The notes under the pieces were generated by a model. It was given only the letters and a program-made list of their open reading frames with translations. It was not told the origin of the DNA and did no database searches. DNA of 51,868 bases, taken from contig JAKOVI010000125.1 in the NCBI GenBank assembly GCA_029782135.1, positions 1-51,868 of the forward strand. Reading direction: 5' to 3'. The stretch's first letter is position 1; each line of letters opens with the position of its first letter. Below, one piece after another: positions 12,502 through 42,059 of this stretch. A program made the position numbers and the translations under genes. Source of the stretch: Bacillota bacterium. Its GTDB lineage: Bacteria > Bacillota > UBA4882 > UBA10575.

Positions 12502-13608
12502 TTAAGCACCATGGATTCTCCGGCTTTTCATCACGTTACCAAACTGATCGACCGTAATTTCCATCCGGTGGATGAAGTCGCCCAGGGAGGCGAGTTTGGC
12601 CACGCTTTCGAGGTGCATAAATTCGTTTAAAGCGCTGTTTAATAGCTCATAGATTTCCGTGAGTTCTTTTTCTCTTTGGATGATACGGTTACGCTCTCGC
12701 TTAAACTTCTCCTCCAGCTCCTGGTTTTCCGCAACTAAACGGTCAATTTCTTTCAATAACTTTTCTTCCTGTTTCAGATTGCGTTCCACCGCTAACAGGT
12801 GTTCAATAAAGCCCCTCAGATCCAACTGACGTTTCTGAGCTTCCTCAAGCGCTTCTACCCTTGCTTCGAGTTTTTGTAAGGCTTCCGGCAAATGAGCCAG
12901 TTGGTAAAGGAAAGTTGATTTTCGTTCCTCACTTTCCGGCGTATAACTGGGAGTAAGCTTTTTATTCCCTGTTTCCATCCGCGCTTCCTGAGGCTCAGGA
13001 GTAATTTCACGTTGCTTCGGCAACTCCTGTTTAAAGGTGACCTTTTCTTTACTGCCGGGCAAGGGCGGAACTTCCTTCCCGTTCAGAAGGGGTGTTTCCG
13101 GAATTCTTATACCGGAACGTTTAAGGACATCACGGCCTAAGGCATTAATCTCCTCTTCGCTGAGGTTCCGTTTCTGCACCAACCGGTAAAAGCGGAGTTT
13201 AAGCGCTGCTTCACTGACCTTTTTCTTCATTAACTGTTGTAACTCTTGGCAAGCTTCGTTTCTGGTTCCCCCCAACACTTGGTGCTTTGCAAAGATCTCA
13301 AGGATAAGCTGGTCTTCGTCATTGGCCAAAATCTCTTTCGGTGTTTGAGACTGGTATTTGGCCCTCATTATTTTGTAATAATCCGTGTTTGAGATCCCTT
13401 TCTCTTTGAGAATTCGACAAAATTGGCTCCGCAAAGCGGAAATTTTTCTCCCAAACCGCTGTGACAGCTCTTTCCGTAGTTTTGGATTCCACCAGTTTTC
13501 GTAGATCATCTCATTTTCGTTTTCTGTATAACGCGGTTTGGAGCGGGCAAGATGATTGCTTTCCGGCATAAAATCTTCTTTTTTTGCAAGTTCATTCGAT
13601 TTTTTCAC
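12502..13608 (-). CDS. RsfA-like protein with two Myb/SANT-like repeats and a coiled coil
   Basis: A 368-residue protein with three parts. Residues 20-85 (TENENEMIYENWWNPKLRKELSQ) and 89-148 (DEDQLILEIFAKHQVLGGTRNEA) each look like an acidic-start, three-helix Myb/SANT-type DNA-binding unit. Residues 150-230 are a Pro/Glu/Lys-rich linker, and 235-320 form a long coiled coil (ALQKLEARVEALEEAQKR, then LLKEIDRLVAENQELEEK). Bacillus RsfA, a prespore regulator, similarly joins a Myb-like N-terminus to a coiled coil, so a DNA-binding regulatory or structural role is likely, but direct kinship is uncertain. There is no signal peptide. It is monocistronic, with about 290 AT-rich bases upstream. Confidence 0.6.
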   Translation of the reverse strand: MKKSNELAKKEDFMPESNHLARSKPRYTENENEMIYENWWNPKLRKELSQRFGRKISALRSQFCRILKEKGISNTDYYKIMRAKYQSQTPKEILANDEDQLILEIFAKHQVLGGTRNEACQELQQLMKKKVSEAALKLRFYRLVQKRNLSEEEINALGRDVLKRSGIRIPETPLLNGKEVPPLPGSKEKVTFKQELPKQREITPEPQEARMETGNKKLTPSYTPESEERKSTFLYQLAHLPEALQKLEARVEALEEAQKRQLDLRGFIEHLLAVERNLKQEEKLLKEIDRLVAENQELEEKFKRERNRIIQREKELTEIYELLNSALNEFMHLESVAKLASLGDFIHRMEITVDQFGNVMKSRRIHGA

Positions 13609-13877: not shown

Positions 13878-13907
13878 AAAAAAAAAAACCTTGACTAGCT
13901 GTCAAGG
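13878..13907 (-). terminator. Terminator of the homocysteine/methionine operon
   Basis: CCTTGAC/GTCAAGG hairpin followed on the minus strand by a run of eleven T's; the stem overlaps the stop codon of the methyltransferase gene. Confidence 0.85.
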
Positions 13908-15223
13908 TCATGAGAACAGAAGACTGTACCGGGAAGATATTGATCTATACACTTTCGAATGGGGTCAGGAAGGCTTGAACGCTCACCTTCATAGAGCGGT
14001 CTTCCAAGATAGTAACGGAAAAATCCGGTAAGGATTTCGGGTTGACCGCCCCTGACCGAGCAGGGACCGGTATAATATAACTGTAAATCCTGGATGAAGT
14101 TCTTGACTTCATCTGCTTTGCTTTCCCAAGCATTAAAGTCTAGCCGTAAAATTGTGTTCTTTTCTTTTTTCAACGTTTCGATTAAAGAAAAAAGATCGAT
14201 GGTCTCTCCATCCAAGTTTATGTTTTTTCGATCATATGGCCGGACGAGGAGAGAATGATGTTCTTCCCACTTGCCTGCCCACCATACCGCTTGTCCCCGG
14301 CCGGCGATGAGGACCCGCTCCGGTTGTTGCTTCTTTTTTGGTTGCGGGCTTGGGGGCAGCTTGTCGATGACTTTCCGCAAATGTTTGATGTGTTCGGGAT
14401 TAGTGCCGCAACAACCACCGACAATTTGGGGGCGTGCTTCCTCGATCAGGACGCGCATTTGCCGGGAAAATTCCTCGGCAGATAACGGATAAACGGTTTT
14501 TCCATCCCGCATTTGCGGTAACCCGGCATTGGGTTGAACGATTAGTGGTAAGGAAGTGGCGTTTGCCATGCGGACCAAGAACGGTTTAAGCTCCGCCGGC
14601 CCTAATCCGCAGTTTAAACCGGCGACATTTACTCCCAATCCTTCGAGGGTGGCAATGATCACTTCTGGTGAGGCGCCGGTAAGCGTGTATCCGTTTTCCA
14701 TTAAGGTAGCGGAAGCCATGACCTGAAGCCGGCAGGAACGGGCGGCGAGAACCGCTGCTTTTAATTCTGCAAGGTCATTCATGGTTTCAATATTGACCAA
14801 CTGAAGGCCTGTTTGTTTCAGAATTTGACATTGCTCATAGTAGATCGCCTCGGCCTCGTCGGGATCTAGTCCACCGAGGGGTGCCAACAATTCCCCGGTT
14901 GGTCCGAGGGAGCCGGCGACGAGACCGTGGGGACCGGCGACGCGGAGAGCAATCTCCGCCCCCCGTTGATTCACTTCACTGATTTTATCTGCTAAACCAT
15001 GACGGGACAAAGCAGCCCGGTTACCACCAAAAGTATTGGTTTGAATCAGATCGGCTCCGGCGTCCAGATAGGCACGGTGGATCGCCTCAACGGTTTCTGG
15101 TTTTTCCAGGGTCATCGTCTCCGGTGGTCTTCCCGGAGGCAACCCCCTTTCCTGGAGCATGCTCCCCATCGCTCCATCGAGTAGATAAGTACGCTCCGGA
15201 GCGAATAAACAGGTCGTTTTCAT
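13895..15223 (-). CDS. Homocysteine S-methyltransferase with an extra C-terminal domain
   Basis: A 442-residue protein. Residues 1-290 are a pterin-independent homocysteine methyltransferase barrel like the MetH N-terminal module: LDGAMGSML, QTNTFGGNR, GSLGPTG, and the zinc triad Cys205 (GLNCG) and Cys271-Cys272 (GGCCGTNPEH). It transfers a methyl group to homocysteine to make methionine. No folate, cobalamin or activation domain of MetH follows. Instead there is a linker rich in P, K and Q and a 140-residue tail containing TILRLDFNAWESKADEV, weakly reminiscent of a decayed pterin-binding barrel. The methyl donor is therefore unclear. It is the last gene of the SAM-riboswitch operon, about 20 bases after the COG2122 gene. 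Confidence 0.88.
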   Translation of the reverse strand: MKTTCLFAPERTYLLDGAMGSMLQERGLPPGRPPETMTLEKPETVEAIHRAYLDAGADLIQTNTFGGNRAALSRHGLADKISEVNQRGAEIALRVAGPHGLVAGSLGPTGELLAPLGGLDPDEAEAIYYEQCQILKQTGLQLVNIETMNDLAELKAAVLAARSCRLQVMASATLMENGYTLTGASPEVIIATLEGLGVNVAGLNCGLGPAELKPFLVRMANATSLPLIVQPNAGLPQMRDGKTVYPLSAEEFSRQMRVLIEEARPQIVGGCCGTNPEHIKHLRKVIDKLPPSPQPKKKQQPERVLIAGRGQAVWWAGKWEEHHSLLVRPYDRKNINLDGETIDLFSLIETLKKEKNTILRLDFNAWESKADEVKNFIQDLQLYYTGPCSVRGGQPEILTGFFRYYLGRPLYEGERSSLPDPIRKCIDQYLPGTVFCSHDLDS

Positions 15224-15244
15224 GACCTGAGTGCCTCCTTTGTC

Positions 15245-15979
15245 TCAAAGTTTAACTAATTCAATCCCGCCCCAAACCGCCATTTTTTCTCCAATGATCA
15301 GAACTGCTCCTGTCACCCCGGCGATTTGGGCGGCAAATTCAATAGTCGACGCCAAATCGGCTGCTGTTTTAATCCGGTTGGCGCAGGCGGTGGCGACCGC
15401 ATCAGCCAGCGCCGGATCAGGCGCGAGAATTACAGCGGCATCGGCTTTCCCTTCACTGTAGGAAGGTCCGACTGTTCCCGATGAGGTACATAGCCCCCAA
15501 GCCTGACTCGGTTGGATCTTAATCCCGGTTTTCCAGGAGAAAGGCGAATTGCCGGCATAAATCGCGACCGTCCGTGGTTGTTTGACATGGAGAAAAAGAT
15601 CCCCCCCGTTCTCAATCAGCAGTTCCGGATTGGCAGGTAACAATTCTTCGCCAAGCAATCCGGCGATTGCCCCCGCAACGGCGGCCATCGGGCCGACTCC
15701 AGCGCACTTTCCGGCAGCGATCATCCGGCGAACCACTTCGGGGGCACCGGGGTCTTCTTCCCATGGCGTAAGGGTGGTAAGAAATTGGGGATGCTGATAG
15801 ATGTATTCTTTCAGTTGGCGTCTGAGCGTTTTTAAGTGTTCTTCCGCAGTTGTACGACAATCATTCGTTGCTTCGATCCAAAGGTCACTCTCGCCGATGG
15901 TTATGCGGAAACTGTGCAGGCCGGGCCTGGCCCGGCGGTAGAAACGGTAAACATCAGTTCTTCGGTGTTGGTCGGTCAT
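15245..15979 (-). CDS. UPF0280/COG2122 ApbE-like protein (sulfide assimilation to homocysteine)
   Basis: A 244-residue UPF0280 family member, distantly related to ApbE. Visible features are GKCAGVGPMAAVAGAIA with conserved Cys92, ENGGDLFL, and CTSSGTVGPSYSEGKADAA, typical of the family. In Methanosarcina the COG2122 protein assists sulfide assimilation into homocysteine and cysteine, reportedly through a persulfide. It directly follows the NIL-ferredoxin gene (stop and start codons adjacent), and COG1900 is at the head of the operon, so all three genes of the anaerobic homocysteine system are together. Control by the upstream SAM riboswitch is expected. Biochemical role inferred from family and context. 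Confidence 0.88.
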   Translation of the reverse strand: MTDQHRRTDVYRFYRRARPGLHSFRITIGESDLWIEATNDCRTTAEEHLKTLRRQLKEYIYQHPQFLTTLTPWEEDPGAPEVVRRMIAAGKCAGVGPMAAVAGAIAGLLGEELLPANPELLIENGGDLFLHVKQPRTVAIYAGNSPFSWKTGIKIQPSQAWGLCTSSGTVGPSYSEGKADAAVILAPDPALADAVATACANRIKTAADLASTIEFAAQIAGVTGAVLIIGEKMAVWGGIELVKL

Positions 15980-16390
15980 CTAAAACATCACCTTAATCAC
16001 CCGCATCGTGCAGGCGGGAACACAAAGCTCGCAGACGATACATTTTTCCCGGTCAAAAACAAGGCGGGCAGTTTGGGGATCAAGCCGTAAGGCGCCGGAA
16101 GTGCAGACCGCCGTACAAGCCCCGCAATGAATACACTCCTCCTCTTCCAGGACAATCTCTTTACTCAGGGGCTGGACAATGACCCCTTGCTTCTCCAGGA
16201 AATCAAGCCCTTCATCAATTTTTTCCGGAGAACCGTTCGAAAGCTCCAAAACAAGTTTTCCCTCTTCACCCGGGGTGATCTTTGCTTTCAAAATATTAAT
16301 CGCCAAATCATAATCTTTCACCAGATGGTATGTAATAGGCCTTTCCGTCAATTCCTGAGGAAACGTTAAGACAACACGGCGTTTGGCCAT
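15980..16390 (-). CDS. NIL domain plus 2[4Fe-4S] ferredoxin protein
   Basis: A 136-residue protein. Residues 1-75 form a NIL domain (a small ACT-like fold also found on methionine ABC transporters). Residues 78-136 carry two [4Fe-4S] motifs, CIHCGACTAVC and CIVCELCVPAC. Its homologue in methanogens (MA1822) works with the COG1900 protein in making homocysteine from aspartate semialdehyde and sulfide, where it would supply electrons. It starts 4 bases after the COG1900 stop codon with GGAGGTG upstream, so expression is tightly coupled. The cluster ligands are complete. Confidence 0.9.
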   Translation of the reverse strand: MAKRRVVLTFPQELTERPITYHLVKDYDLAINILKAKITPGEEGKLVLELSNGSPEKIDEGLDFLEKQGVIVQPLSKEIVLEEEECIHCGACTAVCTSGALRLDPQTARLVFDREKCIVCELCVPACTMRVIKVMF

Positions 16391-16393
16391 TTT

Positions 16394-17554
16394 CTACACC
16401 TCCTCCCGTAAAGGTTTCACACCGTCACGCCAAGGCAGGGATGCGACCGGTTCGGTCAGGTAAAATTGACCGTTGATAATCCACTCTTTAAGCTCGGTTG
16501 CGATTGAACGGGCCTTTTCCAGGCTGGACAAGGGGGCGGTCGGGATCACTTTGCCGTTCAGTTCAATCTTTCCGCTGCGCAGTTCGGCATAGGAGACAAC
16601 CCCCAAGGCCGGACGGGCACGTTGTTGTACTCCGTAATCATAGACTGTTGCTTTCAGCTCTTCGTTGCAGAGCACAACTGTCCGGACAATCTCCTCGTCA
16701 AGCAAGGGGATGGGAATCCCAAGCCCTACATAGAGACTGGTGCCATAGTTATGGAAGATCGCCGCGCGCAGATATTTCCGGTTCATTCCCCTTAGGTCCC
16801 CAATCACGGCTATCGTACCGGCGTTCGTCAGCGGTACGCCGTTTTCATCCCGTCTTTGCGCCGGATTATGCTGTGTTCCTTCCCAGGCAACATAGCCAAC
16901 GCCGCCGCCCAAAAAGATCCGTGTACCAACCCCAATTGTCCGGTAATGTGGATCACAAAGCAGCGGACTGAGTTCCCCGGAAGTCGTATAAGTAGCATTA
17001 CCGTAATTGGGAAGCAGGGTCCCCATATATGTATGATAAGTCCGTCCGGTTGAGTTCACGGCAACACAATAATTCTGATAAGCATTCCGTGGGTTAAATA
17101 AATAGACTTGATTCAGATCGTTAATGGTAATCCAGGTCTCAATTGTGGTGCGGGGATAACAATCCGTTCCGAAACCAATGGCCTTCAATTTGATCTTTTT
17201 CCCGGCTACCAGGTCTTCAATGACATGGGCGCCACCATACTCCAGTCCCCTGCTTTCCGACAATTCCGTCGCCCCCAGATAGGCGTCGACAGCTGCCAAA
17301 CCGGCATAGGCCGGCACATCATTCAACCATACCTTTGCCATCTTGATCGGCGGATCCCCGTGCCCAAAGTTAAGGAAGGCTCCCGAGGAACACATTGCGC
17401 CAAAGGTCCCGGTGGTGACAACATCCACTTTCTCCAAAACTTTTTCCGGGCCTTCATCTTTGGCCATCGCGACTACCTCTTCCGCGGTGAGCACGACCAC
17501 CTTGCCCGCTTTAATCTTCTCATTAATCTCCTGGTATGAACGTGTGATACCCAT
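16394..17554 (-). CDS. COG1900/DUF39 homocysteine biosynthesis protein
   Basis: A 386-residue DUF39 (HcyBio) protein, homologous to Methanosarcina MA1821, which is needed for homocysteine formation from aspartate semialdehyde and sulfide without homoserine activation. Motifs include VVTTGTFGAMCSSGA with Cys55, GFGTDCYPRT with Cys132 and the glycine-rich FLGGGVGYVAWEGTQHNP. The two cysteines correspond in position to those thought essential for persulfide chemistry. It heads the operon, preceded by AGGAGGG and a SAM-I riboswitch, so methionine/SAM status should control it. No CBS-like domain is attached, unlike some homologues. Cytoplasmic. Confidence 0.93.
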   Translation of the reverse strand: MGITRSYQEINEKIKAGKVVVLTAEEVVAMAKDEGPEKVLEKVDVVTTGTFGAMCSSGAFLNFGHGDPPIKMAKVWLNDVPAYAGLAAVDAYLGATELSESRGLEYGGAHVIEDLVAGKKIKLKAIGFGTDCYPRTTIETWITINDLNQVYLFNPRNAYQNYCVAVNSTGRTYHTYMGTLLPNYGNATYTTSGELSPLLCDPHYRTIGVGTRIFLGGGVGYVAWEGTQHNPAQRRDENGVPLTNAGTIAVIGDLRGMNRKYLRAAIFHNYGTSLYVGLGIPIPLLDEEIVRTVVLCNEELKATVYDYGVQQRARPALGVVSYAELRSGKIELNGKVIPTAPLSSLEKARSIATELKEWIINGQFYLTEPVASLPWRDGVKPLREEV

Positions 17555-17610
17555 TTAAATCCCTCCTTCTTTCTTTTTGTGAAAAATTCTGGATAAAAGA
17601 AAAGAACCCA

Positions 17611-17643
17611 AAGAGGGTTCGCAAGTAGTACTGCTACCCTCTT
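17611..17643 (-). terminator. Riboswitch-controlled terminator before the COG1900 gene
   Basis: On the minus strand AAGAGGGT pairs with ACCCTCTT around about 17 bases, followed by a T-rich run. Its 5' arm adjoins and partly overlaps the 3' strand of riboswitch P1, so antiterminator and terminator can be mutually exclusive. Confidence 0.75.
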
Positions 17644-17752
17644 CTCATCTCTCAAAGCATAGCTTTGCAGGAATTGGCACCTTCTGGTCTTTTGACCTAG
17701 GGTTGCCGAGGTTTCATCGGGCCTGTCCCTCCGCCTCTCTTGATAAGAAGAG
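17639..17752 (-). ncRNA. SAM-I (S-box) riboswitch
   Basis: The minus strand shows all S-box hallmarks: an 11-bp P1 (CTCTTCTTATC with GATGAGAAGAG), then AGAGAGGCGGAGGGA, GGCCCGATGAAACC, CGGCAACC, the P3 segment GGTGCCAATTCCTGC and the junction AGAGATGAG. SAM binding should stabilise P1 and favour the terminator, switching off the homocysteine/methionine operon when SAM is plentiful. Confidence 0.97.
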
Positions 17753-17788
17753 TAACAGAGCTTTTTTCAATTTCGTATAATTGAAAGT

Positions 17789-17817
17789 ATCCTAACACAT
17801 CACGAAAAGGATGTCAA
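17789..17817 (-). promoter_or_regulatory. Promoter of the SAM-riboswitch operon
   Basis: Minus strand TTGACA (17812-17817), 17-base spacer, TAGGAT (17789-17794); transcription would start about 30 bases before the riboswitch P1. Confidence 0.75.
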
Positions 17818-17878: not shown

Positions 17879-18778
17879 TCAGAGAACACGGTAGCCCTCA
17901 TTGTTCACCGCAACCGGAAGCCACCGGGCTTTAATGTTATGCGCAGCAAAAGCGGCGACCATCCCCTCGCCAACCGCCTCCCGGCGTTCGCCTGGGCAAA
18001 AAGCAATAATCGACGGACCGGAACCGCTCAGCGCAACTCCCATTGCTCCTTCCCGGTAGGCTGCCTCCAAGACATGATGAAAACCGGGGATCAAGACGGA
18101 ACGCCGGTCTTGATGAAGCTTATCCCGCATTGCGAAACGTAATAACTCCGGCCGGTTGCTAAAACAGGCACCAACCAGGACCCCAGTATGGGCAAGGTTA
18201 AAGATGGCCTCTTCCATCGTAACCTTGGCGGGAAGAAGTTGACGTGCCTCTTTGGTCGCAACCCGGAGGTGAGGAACGGCTAACACGACATGCAGATCCT
18301 TTGGAAAAGGGATTTTAAGCACCGTATGCCCGCCACCGAGCGGTTCCGGCAAGACTCCAACCAGGCCGCCAAAAAGCGCCGGGGCAACATTATCCGGATG
18401 GCCTTCGAGTGTAGTGGCCAGCGCTAATAGTTGATCCTTGGATAAGGGCTCCCCTAAACAGTAATTGGCAGCCACCAAACCGCCGACAATTGCGGAGGCA
18501 CTGGAGCCAAGGCCACCGACTTCCGGAATCCGGTTCTCGAGATGAACCTTTCCCCCGCTAAGCGGATGACCGGTTTCCGCGTAAACCCTCTTGATTGCTT
18601 GACAGACCAGGAGATCTGTCCGGCCGGCAAGTTGCGCGGCACCGTACCCTTCGGCTGTTACTGTCCATTCATCGGCCGGGGTAAAGTGAACGGTATTATA
18701 GAGTTCAAGGGCTAAACCGAGAAAGTCAAAACCCGGTCCTAAATTGGCACTGGTCGCCGGTGCCATTACCGTAACCAT
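17879..18778 (-). CDS. thrB: Homoserine kinase
   Basis: A 299-residue GHMP kinase that phosphorylates homoserine in threonine biosynthesis. Diagnostic features are APATSANLGPGFD near the N-terminus, the ATP-binding VGGLGSSASA loop, LEGHPDN, and ALSGSGPS at about residue 255. I chose ATG 18778 because GGGAGGT lies 6 bases upstream; the in-frame ATG at 18793 has no ribosome binding site. It follows ilvE on the same strand with a 13-bp hairpin between them. Because the neighbouring COG1900 route branches at aspartate semialdehyde, homoserine can be committed to threonine. Confidence 0.95.
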   Translation of the reverse strand: MVTVMAPATSANLGPGFDFLGLALELYNTVHFTPADEWTVTAEGYGAAQLAGRTDLLVCQAIKRVYAETGHPLSGGKVHLENRIPEVGGLGSSASAIVGGLVAANYCLGEPLSKDQLLALATTLEGHPDNVAPALFGGLVGVLPEPLGGGHTVLKIPFPKDLHVVLAVPHLRVATKEARQLLPAKVTMEEAIFNLAHTGVLVGACFSNRPELLRFAMRDKLHQDRRSVLIPGFHHVLEAAYREGAMGVALSGSGPSIIAFCPGERREAVGEGMVAAFAAHNIKARWLPVAVNNEGYRVL

Positions 18779-18798
18779 CAACAAACCTCCCATTCAAC

Positions 18799-40626: not shown

Positions 40627-42006
40627 TTATTTTACACCCGGGACCTTTGGCAACAGGGCAAAACCCTTCTCAAGATCTGCGTCGCTTGGAATAAAATCGG
40701 TCATTGTGCCGTTTGCATACGCATCATAAGCGGTCAAATCAAAGAAGCCGGTACCGGTCAAACCAAAGAGAATGGTTTTTGCTTCACCGCTTTCTTTGCA
40801 ACGTAAAGCCTCATCAATCGCAACCCGGATTGCATGGGCCGATTCCGGCGCCGGCAGGATGGTCTCATGTTTGGCAAAGAAGGTTGCCGCTTCAAAGACC
40901 TTGGTCTGTTCCACCGCCACCGCTTCCATATAACCGTCGGCATAAAGCTTGGAGAGGACCGGTGACATGCCATGGTAACGCAGACCGCCCGCGTGATTGG
41001 GGGAAGGGATAAACCCGCTGCCAAGGGTGTACATCCGGGCTAACGGTGTAATTTTACCGGTGTCGCAAAAATCATAGGCGTAACGGCCCCGGGTAAACGA
41101 TGGACAGGAGGCCGGTTCAACGGCGATGATCCGCGGCGAAGCCTTTCCTAATAGTTTATCCTGCATAAAGGGGGCGATTAAGCCGCCTAAATTGGACCCC
41201 CCGCCCGCGCAACCGATGATAATATCGGGATATTCATCCAACATTTCCATAGCGGCCTTGGTTTCCAAACCGATGATCGATTGGTGGAGAAGAACCTGAT
41301 TGAGGACAGAGCCAAGGACATAACGGTATCCCTCCGTTGTGACGGCTTTTTCGACCGCTTCGGAAATGGCGCAGCCGAGACTTCCACCATTTTGCGGGTC
41401 TTTCTCCAGGATTGCCCTGCCGGCCGTCGTTGTCGGACTGGGGCTGGCAATCACTTCCGCGCCAAAGGTCTGCATCACTGAGCGACGGAAGGGCTTCTGT
41501 TCATAGGAGCATTTAACCATATAGACGGTTAAAGGAATCTTAAAAAAGGCACAAGCTTCCGCCATTGCCGTTCCCCACTGGCCGGCGCCGGTCTCTGTCG
41601 TCAGACCGGCCAGGCCTTGTTTCTTGGCATAATAAGTTTGGGCGGCGGCGGAATTGAGCTTATGACTGCCGGAGGTGTTGTTCCCCTCAAATTTGAAATA
41701 AATCCTCGCCGGTGTATCCAGTGCTTTCTCTAAATTGTAAGCGCGAATCAGTGGTGAGGGGCGAAACATTTTATAAAAATCCAGCACCTCACCGGGGATA
41801 TCAAAATACCTGGTTGTTGTATCCATTTCCTGTTTGACCAGCTCTTCGCAGAAGACCGGATAAAGTTCCTCCGCAGTGATTGGTTGGAAGGTCGCCGGGT
41901 TAAGCATCGGATCGGGTTGTTCCTTCAGATCCGCACGGAGGTTATACCATTGTTTCGGCATCTGCTCTTCGGATAAATACACTCGATACGGGACTTTTTT
42001 TGACAT
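40627..42006 (-). CDS. trpB: TrpB2-type tryptophan synthase beta chain
   Basis: A 459-residue TrpB2-subgroup PLP enzyme making tryptophan from indole and serine. PLP-binding Lys116 is in GSHKLNSA, catalytic Glu138 in TETGAGQWG, and the phosphate site in GCAGGGSN. The N-terminal extension (VYLSEEQMPKQWYNLRADL) and the length are TrpB2 hallmarks. No trpA or other trp gene is adjacent; TrpB2 commonly stands alone and may salvage indole. ATG 42006 follows GGAGAATTGAGC. A tryptophan-specifier T-box leader precedes it, so it is induced by uncharged tRNA-Trp. Confidence 0.95.
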   Translation of the reverse strand: MSKKVPYRVYLSEEQMPKQWYNLRADLKEQPDPMLNPATFQPITAEELYPVFCEELVKQEMDTTTRYFDIPGEVLDFYKMFRPSPLIRAYNLEKALDTPARIYFKFEGNNTSGSHKLNSAAAQTYYAKKQGLAGLTTETGAGQWGTAMAEACAFFKIPLTVYMVKCSYEQKPFRRSVMQTFGAEVIASPSPTTTAGRAILEKDPQNGGSLGCAISEAVEKAVTTEGYRYVLGSVLNQVLLHQSIIGLETKAAMEMLDEYPDIIIGCAGGGSNLGGLIAPFMQDKLLGKASPRIIAVEPASCPSFTRGRYAYDFCDTGKITPLARMYTLGSGFIPSPNHAGGLRYHGMSPVLSKLYADGYMEAVAVEQTKVFEAATFFAKHETILPAPESAHAIRVAIDEALRCKESGEAKTILFGLTGTGFFDLTAYDAYANGTMTDFIPSDADLEKGFALLPKVPGVK

Positions 42007-42059
42007 GCTCAATTCTCCTCTCTTCTCGTCTCATCTCGACTTTATTTTGGTTTTTATAT

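Follow-up and report, generated by a model that had tools for sequence, protein, structure and literature searches.

The window, that is, the whole stretch of 51,868 nucleotides of contig JAKOVI010000125.1, comes from the assembly of an uncultured Bacillota bacterium (G000; 2.38 Mb in 163 contigs, 96.6% complete, its contigs being designated here by C-numbers). On the minus strand of the window a promoter-like site of the extended -10 type is followed, in near-gapless order, by a SAM-I riboswitch (SAM, S-adenosylmethionine) with a terminator/antiterminator platform, by four genes that encode in turn COG1900a/HcyBio, a NIL-ferredoxin, COG2122 and a homocysteine methyltransferase, and by an intrinsic terminator. 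This is very probably a SAM-repressed methionine operon that would make homocysteine by a homoserine-independent reductive route and provide only the homocysteine subunit of a three-part split MetH. The case is built on the gene identities, the riboswitch and its platform, the lack of any other homocysteine route in the assembly and the split-MetH parts recognized in sequence, and from these we infer the enzyme activities, the binding of SAM and the MetH partnership. The features, in the direction of transcription, are:

17789-17817, minus strand: promoter-like site TTGACA-17-TAGGAT, with TG ahead of the -10 (10 of 12 positions match; a consensus match only)
17642-17749, minus strand: SAM-I (S-box) aptamer (Rfam RF00162, 96.5 bits, the gathering score being 44.4, E 4.1e-22; 115.8 bits with our own covariance model, R1)
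17596-17661, minus strand: expression platform, with antiterminator AGAAGAGGGU/ACCCUCUUU drawing on the P1 3' strand (two folds compared, the 5' part of the aptamer being included or removed)
17604-17620, minus strand: intrinsic attenuator hairpin GAACCC-CUCUU-GGGUUC, then UUUUCUUUU (fold and terminator scan; most relatives also have such a terminator nearby)
16394-17554, minus strand: hcyBio/COG1900a, of the L-aspartate semialdehyde sulfurtransferase type, 386 residues (PF01837, 508 bits, E 1e-152; Cys55, Cys132)
15980-16390, minus strand: NIL domain (PF09383, 5.9e-16) plus two [4Fe-4S] ferredoxin motifs (PF00037, Fer4), 136 residues
15245-15979, minus strand: COG2122/UPF0280 (PRK04334), 244 residues (NF003323, 274.8 bits against a cut-off of 271; conserved Cys164)
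13895-15223, minus strand: putative homocysteine S-methyltransferase module of a split MetH, 442 residues (PF02574, E 1.4e-69; zinc ligands Cys205, Cys271, Cys272)
13895-14329, minus strand: within the preceding, a degenerate and truncated folate (pterin-binding) domain, the C-terminal ~140 residues (hhalign against the MetH folate domain, 94.5%, E 7e-8; no Pfam hit)
13887-13909, minus strand: intrinsic terminator at the end of the operon, a hairpin then a T run, sharing bases with the last gene's stop codon (consensus scan)

The four genes follow one another in tandem with gaps of 3, 0 and 21 nt, in that order, and Shine-Dalgarno-like sequences precede most of them; together with the one promoter-like site and the one final hairpin and T run, this argues for a single transcript. 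The original prediction had proposed just such an arrangement of four contiguous genes with one promoter, one SAM riboswitch and one terminator, and every element was found where it had been placed.

The SAM-I leader and its recurrence

The SAM-I match is not a chance one, given its excess over the gathering score and its E value (4e-22). In the predicted fold of the leader that includes the aptamer, P1 is closed and the GAACCC/GGGUUC terminator stands separately, with a U-rich stretch after it. When the 5' strand of P1 is taken away, the 3' strand pairs to form the antiterminator instead and the terminator is destroyed. Mutually exclusive terminator and antiterminator structures, by which a SAM-I expression platform is recognized, are thus present in the predicted folds and, judged by its sequence, the leader is a textbook transcriptional SAM-off switch, with SAM as its presumed ligand. 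Only one further SAM-I riboswitch was found in the genome, ahead of metK, which makes the operon part of an ordinary S-box methionine regulon and bears out the earlier proposal that the riboswitch ties this pathway to methionine control.

Eighty named hcyBio loci (designated by L-numbers) were compared, with SAM-I riboswitches called by a covariance model built here and several of them confirmed with Rfam. A SAM-I riboswitch lies upstream of hcyBio at 25 of the 80, in Bacillota and four Nitrospirota, and a terminator is clear within ~60 nt of the aptamer at 22 of 26 SAM-I loci, the window included. On the HcyBio tree the SAM-I label is clustered (6 changes, against a mean of 22 when labels are shuffled), yet it needs several gains or losses. 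Two Actinomycetota loci have, in place of SAM-I, a T-box leader a short way upstream of hcyBio (L054:4592-4915 and L098:4634-4951); the two leaders are apparently methionine-specific, the specifier position reading GAAC-AUG in both when aligned. At many loci a full-length MetH follows the genes. SAM-I riboswitches, methionine T-boxes and MetH neighbours are independent pointers to methionine synthesis, and the recurring SAM-I control (apparently with the Actinomycetota T-boxes) constitutes independent evidence that COG1900a, NIL-ferredoxin and COG2122 serve that purpose in bacteria. The position of the riboswitch varies: in Acetobacterium bakii (L121:7378-7475) it lies before metH, after the hcyBio-NIL-COG2122 cluster and not before hcyBio, and at L036 (3604-3709) and L039 (338-441) it lies ~1 kb upstream of hcyBio, so that a further gene may lie between.

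The fourth gene and a probable split methionine synthase

The 442-residue product of the fourth gene aligns to residues 18-424 of the 807-residue MetH from L113. Its residues 1-300 carry the zinc cysteines; in profile comparison the C-terminal ~140 residues correspond to the opening half of the MetH folate domain, with the loss of conserved motifs such as GERIN. The protein has no PF00809, PF02310 or PF02607 match in Pfam; intact folate and B12 domains are absent from the chain. An AlphaFold model is confident throughout (predicted local distance difference test score, 92.9) and, over its full length, resembles residues 1-566 of T. maritima MetH with a template-modelling (TM) score of 0.83, against 0.52 for MmuM, although MetH sequences in the input alignment may favour that fit. 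As read from sequence and profile, the fourth protein is a MetH homocysteine module with a degenerate folate half-domain and not a complete methionine synthase. Since it corresponds to one part of MetH, the operon would supply homocysteine and a homocysteine-binding subunit, not the whole synthase. Comparison of profiles and of structures led us to reject the notion that a new domain makes up the unmatched 140-residue tail. In a more distant member of the Bacillota (L084:2184-3461), too, COG2122 is followed by a short homocysteine subunit of MetH (426 residues) whose folate-domain tail is degenerate; the hcyBio and NIL frames of that locus appear broken, perhaps by assembly errors.

Candidates for the remaining parts are scattered through the genome: a stand-alone folate-domain protein on C146 (covering MetH residues 330-584), two stand-alone corrinoid proteins on C141 and C84 (covering 578-807), a RACo-type reactivator on C110 and a short MTHFR homologue on C151, a weak match at 45.6 bits. 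The genome holds no full-length MetH, no MetH frame longer than that of the operon and no MetE/MesB (a PF01717 member being absent). FolP, on C136, was rejected as a MetH part; its score is that of a dihydropteroate synthase, and its alignment to MetH is weak. The description of the locus in the original prediction as a complete sulfide-to-methionine operon consequently holds for the operon and not for its completeness, the fourth protein lacking a working folate domain and a B12 domain and the remaining methionine synthase lying on other contigs. When 16 genomes of the same GTDB family were compared, intact and split MetH proved mostly complementary in distribution, with one mixed case: genus g2 encodes an intact MetH and lacks the stand-alone folate protein, and split parts occur in genera g1 (that of the source), g3, g189 and g190. 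The methionine synthase of this bacterium matches a three-part split MetH, and we infer from distribution and homology that its pieces are partners. Split MetH beside intact relatives in one family provides an example of gene fission in which a folded remnant persists. The second corrinoid protein (L128:7426-9408, on C84) lies directly after a regulator of the AraC type that may carry a PocR-like sensor, a neighbourhood that suggests a separate methyl-substrate system.

How the methyl group reaches homocysteine allows of other accounts. As has been proposed for MesB, the corrinoid protein that serves the split synthase might receive its methyl group from methylamines, methanol or the Wood-Ljungdahl CoFeSP instead of from methyl-tetrahydrofolate (methyl-THF). 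The degenerate folate domain of the operon protein, the MtbC/MetH-cap kind of the corrinoid proteins and the low score of the MTHFR homologue would all suit such a donor. We nevertheless consider it unlikely, because an MTHFR-family protein is present together with a stand-alone folate-type methyltransferase that lies outside any acs gene cluster. Quite unlikely, too, is that the half-folate homocysteine subunit represents a distinct methionine synthase subunit, whose remnant would offer free corrinoid proteins, methylated from several donors, a surface to dock on; if so, one SAM-controlled operon would draw methyl groups from beyond methyl-THF. The fourth protein might, finally, act alone as an MmuM/BHMT-type methyltransferase with S-methylmethionine or betaine as its methyl donor, the operon still making homocysteine. 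It does have a PF02574 domain of its own and no B12 domain, but its scores fall under the cut-offs of the NCBIfam models for MmuM and betaine methyltransferase (98.3 against 215 for PRK09485, 227.6 against 338 for PRK07534), its whole length fits MetH(1-566) better than MmuM by the TM scores given above, and the genome provides folate, corrinoid and reactivase pieces that track the split form within the family, all of which makes this identification improbable.

The route to homocysteine

Targeted profile searches of the genome, in which positive controls were detected, found no MetA/HTS (PF04204), no MetX (TIGR01392) and no true member of PF01053 (MetB/C/Y/Z). There are four weak PF01053 hits of at most 32 bits, none scoring as expected of MetB/C/Y; the best two were rejected as Met enzymes because their open reading frames (ORFs) are KBL/BioF-like by sequence, as was one on C146, which overlaps a cysteine desulfurase-like ORF. 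With neither a homoserine acyltransferase nor a real PF01053 pyridoxal phosphate (PLP) enzyme, the reductive route is the only recognizable one, and the organism appears to make homocysteine from sulfide and aspartate semialdehyde by the known three-gene pathway. Homocysteine formation that bypasses homoserine acylation and transsulfuration had been foreseen; the proposed genome search for metA/metX, metB, metY and metC, which did not find a full conventional pathway, favours it. In a phylum survey of 249 genomes, strong PF01053 members occur in 42 of the 80 that are HcyBio-positive and in 145 of the 169 that are HcyBio-negative (Fisher p 4e-8, relatedness not being corrected for).

Several observations weigh against a SAM-repressed operon that feeds a split MetH by the sole route to homocysteine. 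The assembly is fragmented and incomplete, so that a met gene may have been missed; a strong PF01053 protein is present in four of the seven same-family members of the phylum survey, so that its absence is not family-wide; the same-genus genome G255 has a 664-residue MetH-like fused frame in addition to split parts; and 49 of the 80 hcyBio loci on the tree have no recognized SAM-I riboswitch or T-box. The first two of these would accord with a conventional homocysteine pathway hidden in the missing few per cent of the genome, the operon then being an accessory route of sulfide assimilation. The joint absence of MetA, MetX and PF01053 here, and the lack of PF01053 in two other members of the family (G020 and G137), render this decidedly improbable.

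Cys55 and Cys132 of HcyBio, which the original prediction had noted as retained, are invariant in 111 of 111 sequences and are equivalent to positions 54 and 131 of COG1900a; of these two cysteines, only Cys54 is essential in M. acetivorans (PMC12068725). The eight cluster cysteines of the ferredoxin are invariant in 100 of 100 relatives. Cys92 of COG2122, likewise noted as retained, is indeed there, but only one of 72 sequences has it; Cys164 is the cysteine that is nearly invariant (71 of 72). A relative of COG2122 has a solved structure (2o34), and a search by sequence found none for HcyBio. That the COG1900 protein instead synthesizes coenzyme M (MMP16/ComF type) or forms some other thiol is scarcely credible: its TIGR03287 match of 112.6 bits is far under the 363.95 cut-off, on which ground that identity was rejected, the two cysteines are those of COG1900a (PMC12068725), and SAM-I riboswitches, methionine T-boxes and methionine synthase neighbours all indicate methionine.

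The homoserine-independent operon would then work as follows. At low SAM the 3' strand of P1 would be taken up in the antiterminator and transcription would read through. HcyBio would form a persulfide on Cys55 and, with electrons from the NIL-ferredoxin, convert aspartate semialdehyde and sulfide to homocysteine, with COG2122 assisting. The fourth protein would bind homocysteine, activate it with zinc and methylate it from a separate corrinoid protein. A methyl-THF:corrinoid methyltransferase, likewise separate, would charge that corrinoid protein, and the RACo-type protein would keep it reduced. At high SAM, P1 would close and the terminator would halt transcription.

Known systems and neighbouring genes

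In Desulfovibrio, a homocysteine pathway of DUF39, NIL/Fd and COG2122 proteins has been demonstrated genetically and linked to Dehalococcoides (PMC5764234); the three-protein pathway has also been shown in methanogens (PMC12068725 and references there). D. vulgaris Miyazaki F and D. alaskensis share the three protein families and lack the standard homocysteine genes, and homoserine is not an intermediate there (PMC5764234); in D. vulgaris, however, the locus tags of the three genes are widely separated, whereas here the genes are contiguous and under a SAM-I riboswitch. The L-aspartate semialdehyde sulfurtransferase of Methanosarcina acetivorans (MA1821-MA1822, with MA1715; PMC12068725, PMC5764234) likewise comprises a COG1900a protein with two cysteines and a NIL-ferredoxin partner, together with COG2122, but the archaeal COG1900 subunit has a CBS domain that has been proposed as a SAM sensor; the 386-residue protein of the window has the HcyBio domain only, and its SAM control would be exerted by RNA. 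Dehalococcoides (DET0921-DET0919; PMC5764234) also has a bacterial DUF39 gene cluster, but its methionine synthase is MesB (PMC7857596), which the genome examined here lacks.

The three-part MetH of Phaeobacter inhibens, shown genetically (PMC5764234), likewise consists of separate homocysteine, folate and corrinoid proteins with a RamA/RACo-like reactivator. The putative homocysteine subunit described here differs in keeping a degenerate half folate domain and in its place in a SAM-regulated operon, and its partners are presumed ones. The SAM-I element conforms to the S-box family (RF00162) in its aptamer, its P1-based antiterminator and terminator and the regulation of metK, and differs in its target, a reductive homocysteine operon. 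The literature searched contained no report linking a SAM riboswitch to COG1900/DUF39, which does not prove the wiring unreported; Sun et al. 2013 (PMC3766115) mention only unnamed genes under SAM riboswitches. The pathway, SAM-I and split MetH are each already known; it is their combination that seems new, and the wiring, undescribed in the literature searched, seems nonetheless widespread. Gene annotation and the prediction of auxotrophy in uncultured anaerobes stand to gain in reliability, since genomes of this kind would score as methionine auxotrophs and yet carry a regulated route.

Directly downstream of the operon (12502-13608, minus strand) lies a gene for a 368-residue protein with a likely coiled coil and no Pfam match. 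Upstream and outside the operon is:

17879-18793, minus strand: thrB, homoserine kinase (TIGR00191, 281.4 bits)

Elsewhere in the window, a T-box leader (42343-42082, minus strand; 97 bits) whose specifier position reads UGG (Trp) is followed at 40627-42012, minus strand, by a gene for a 461-residue PLP enzyme that looks like a tryptophan synthase beta-like TrpB2.

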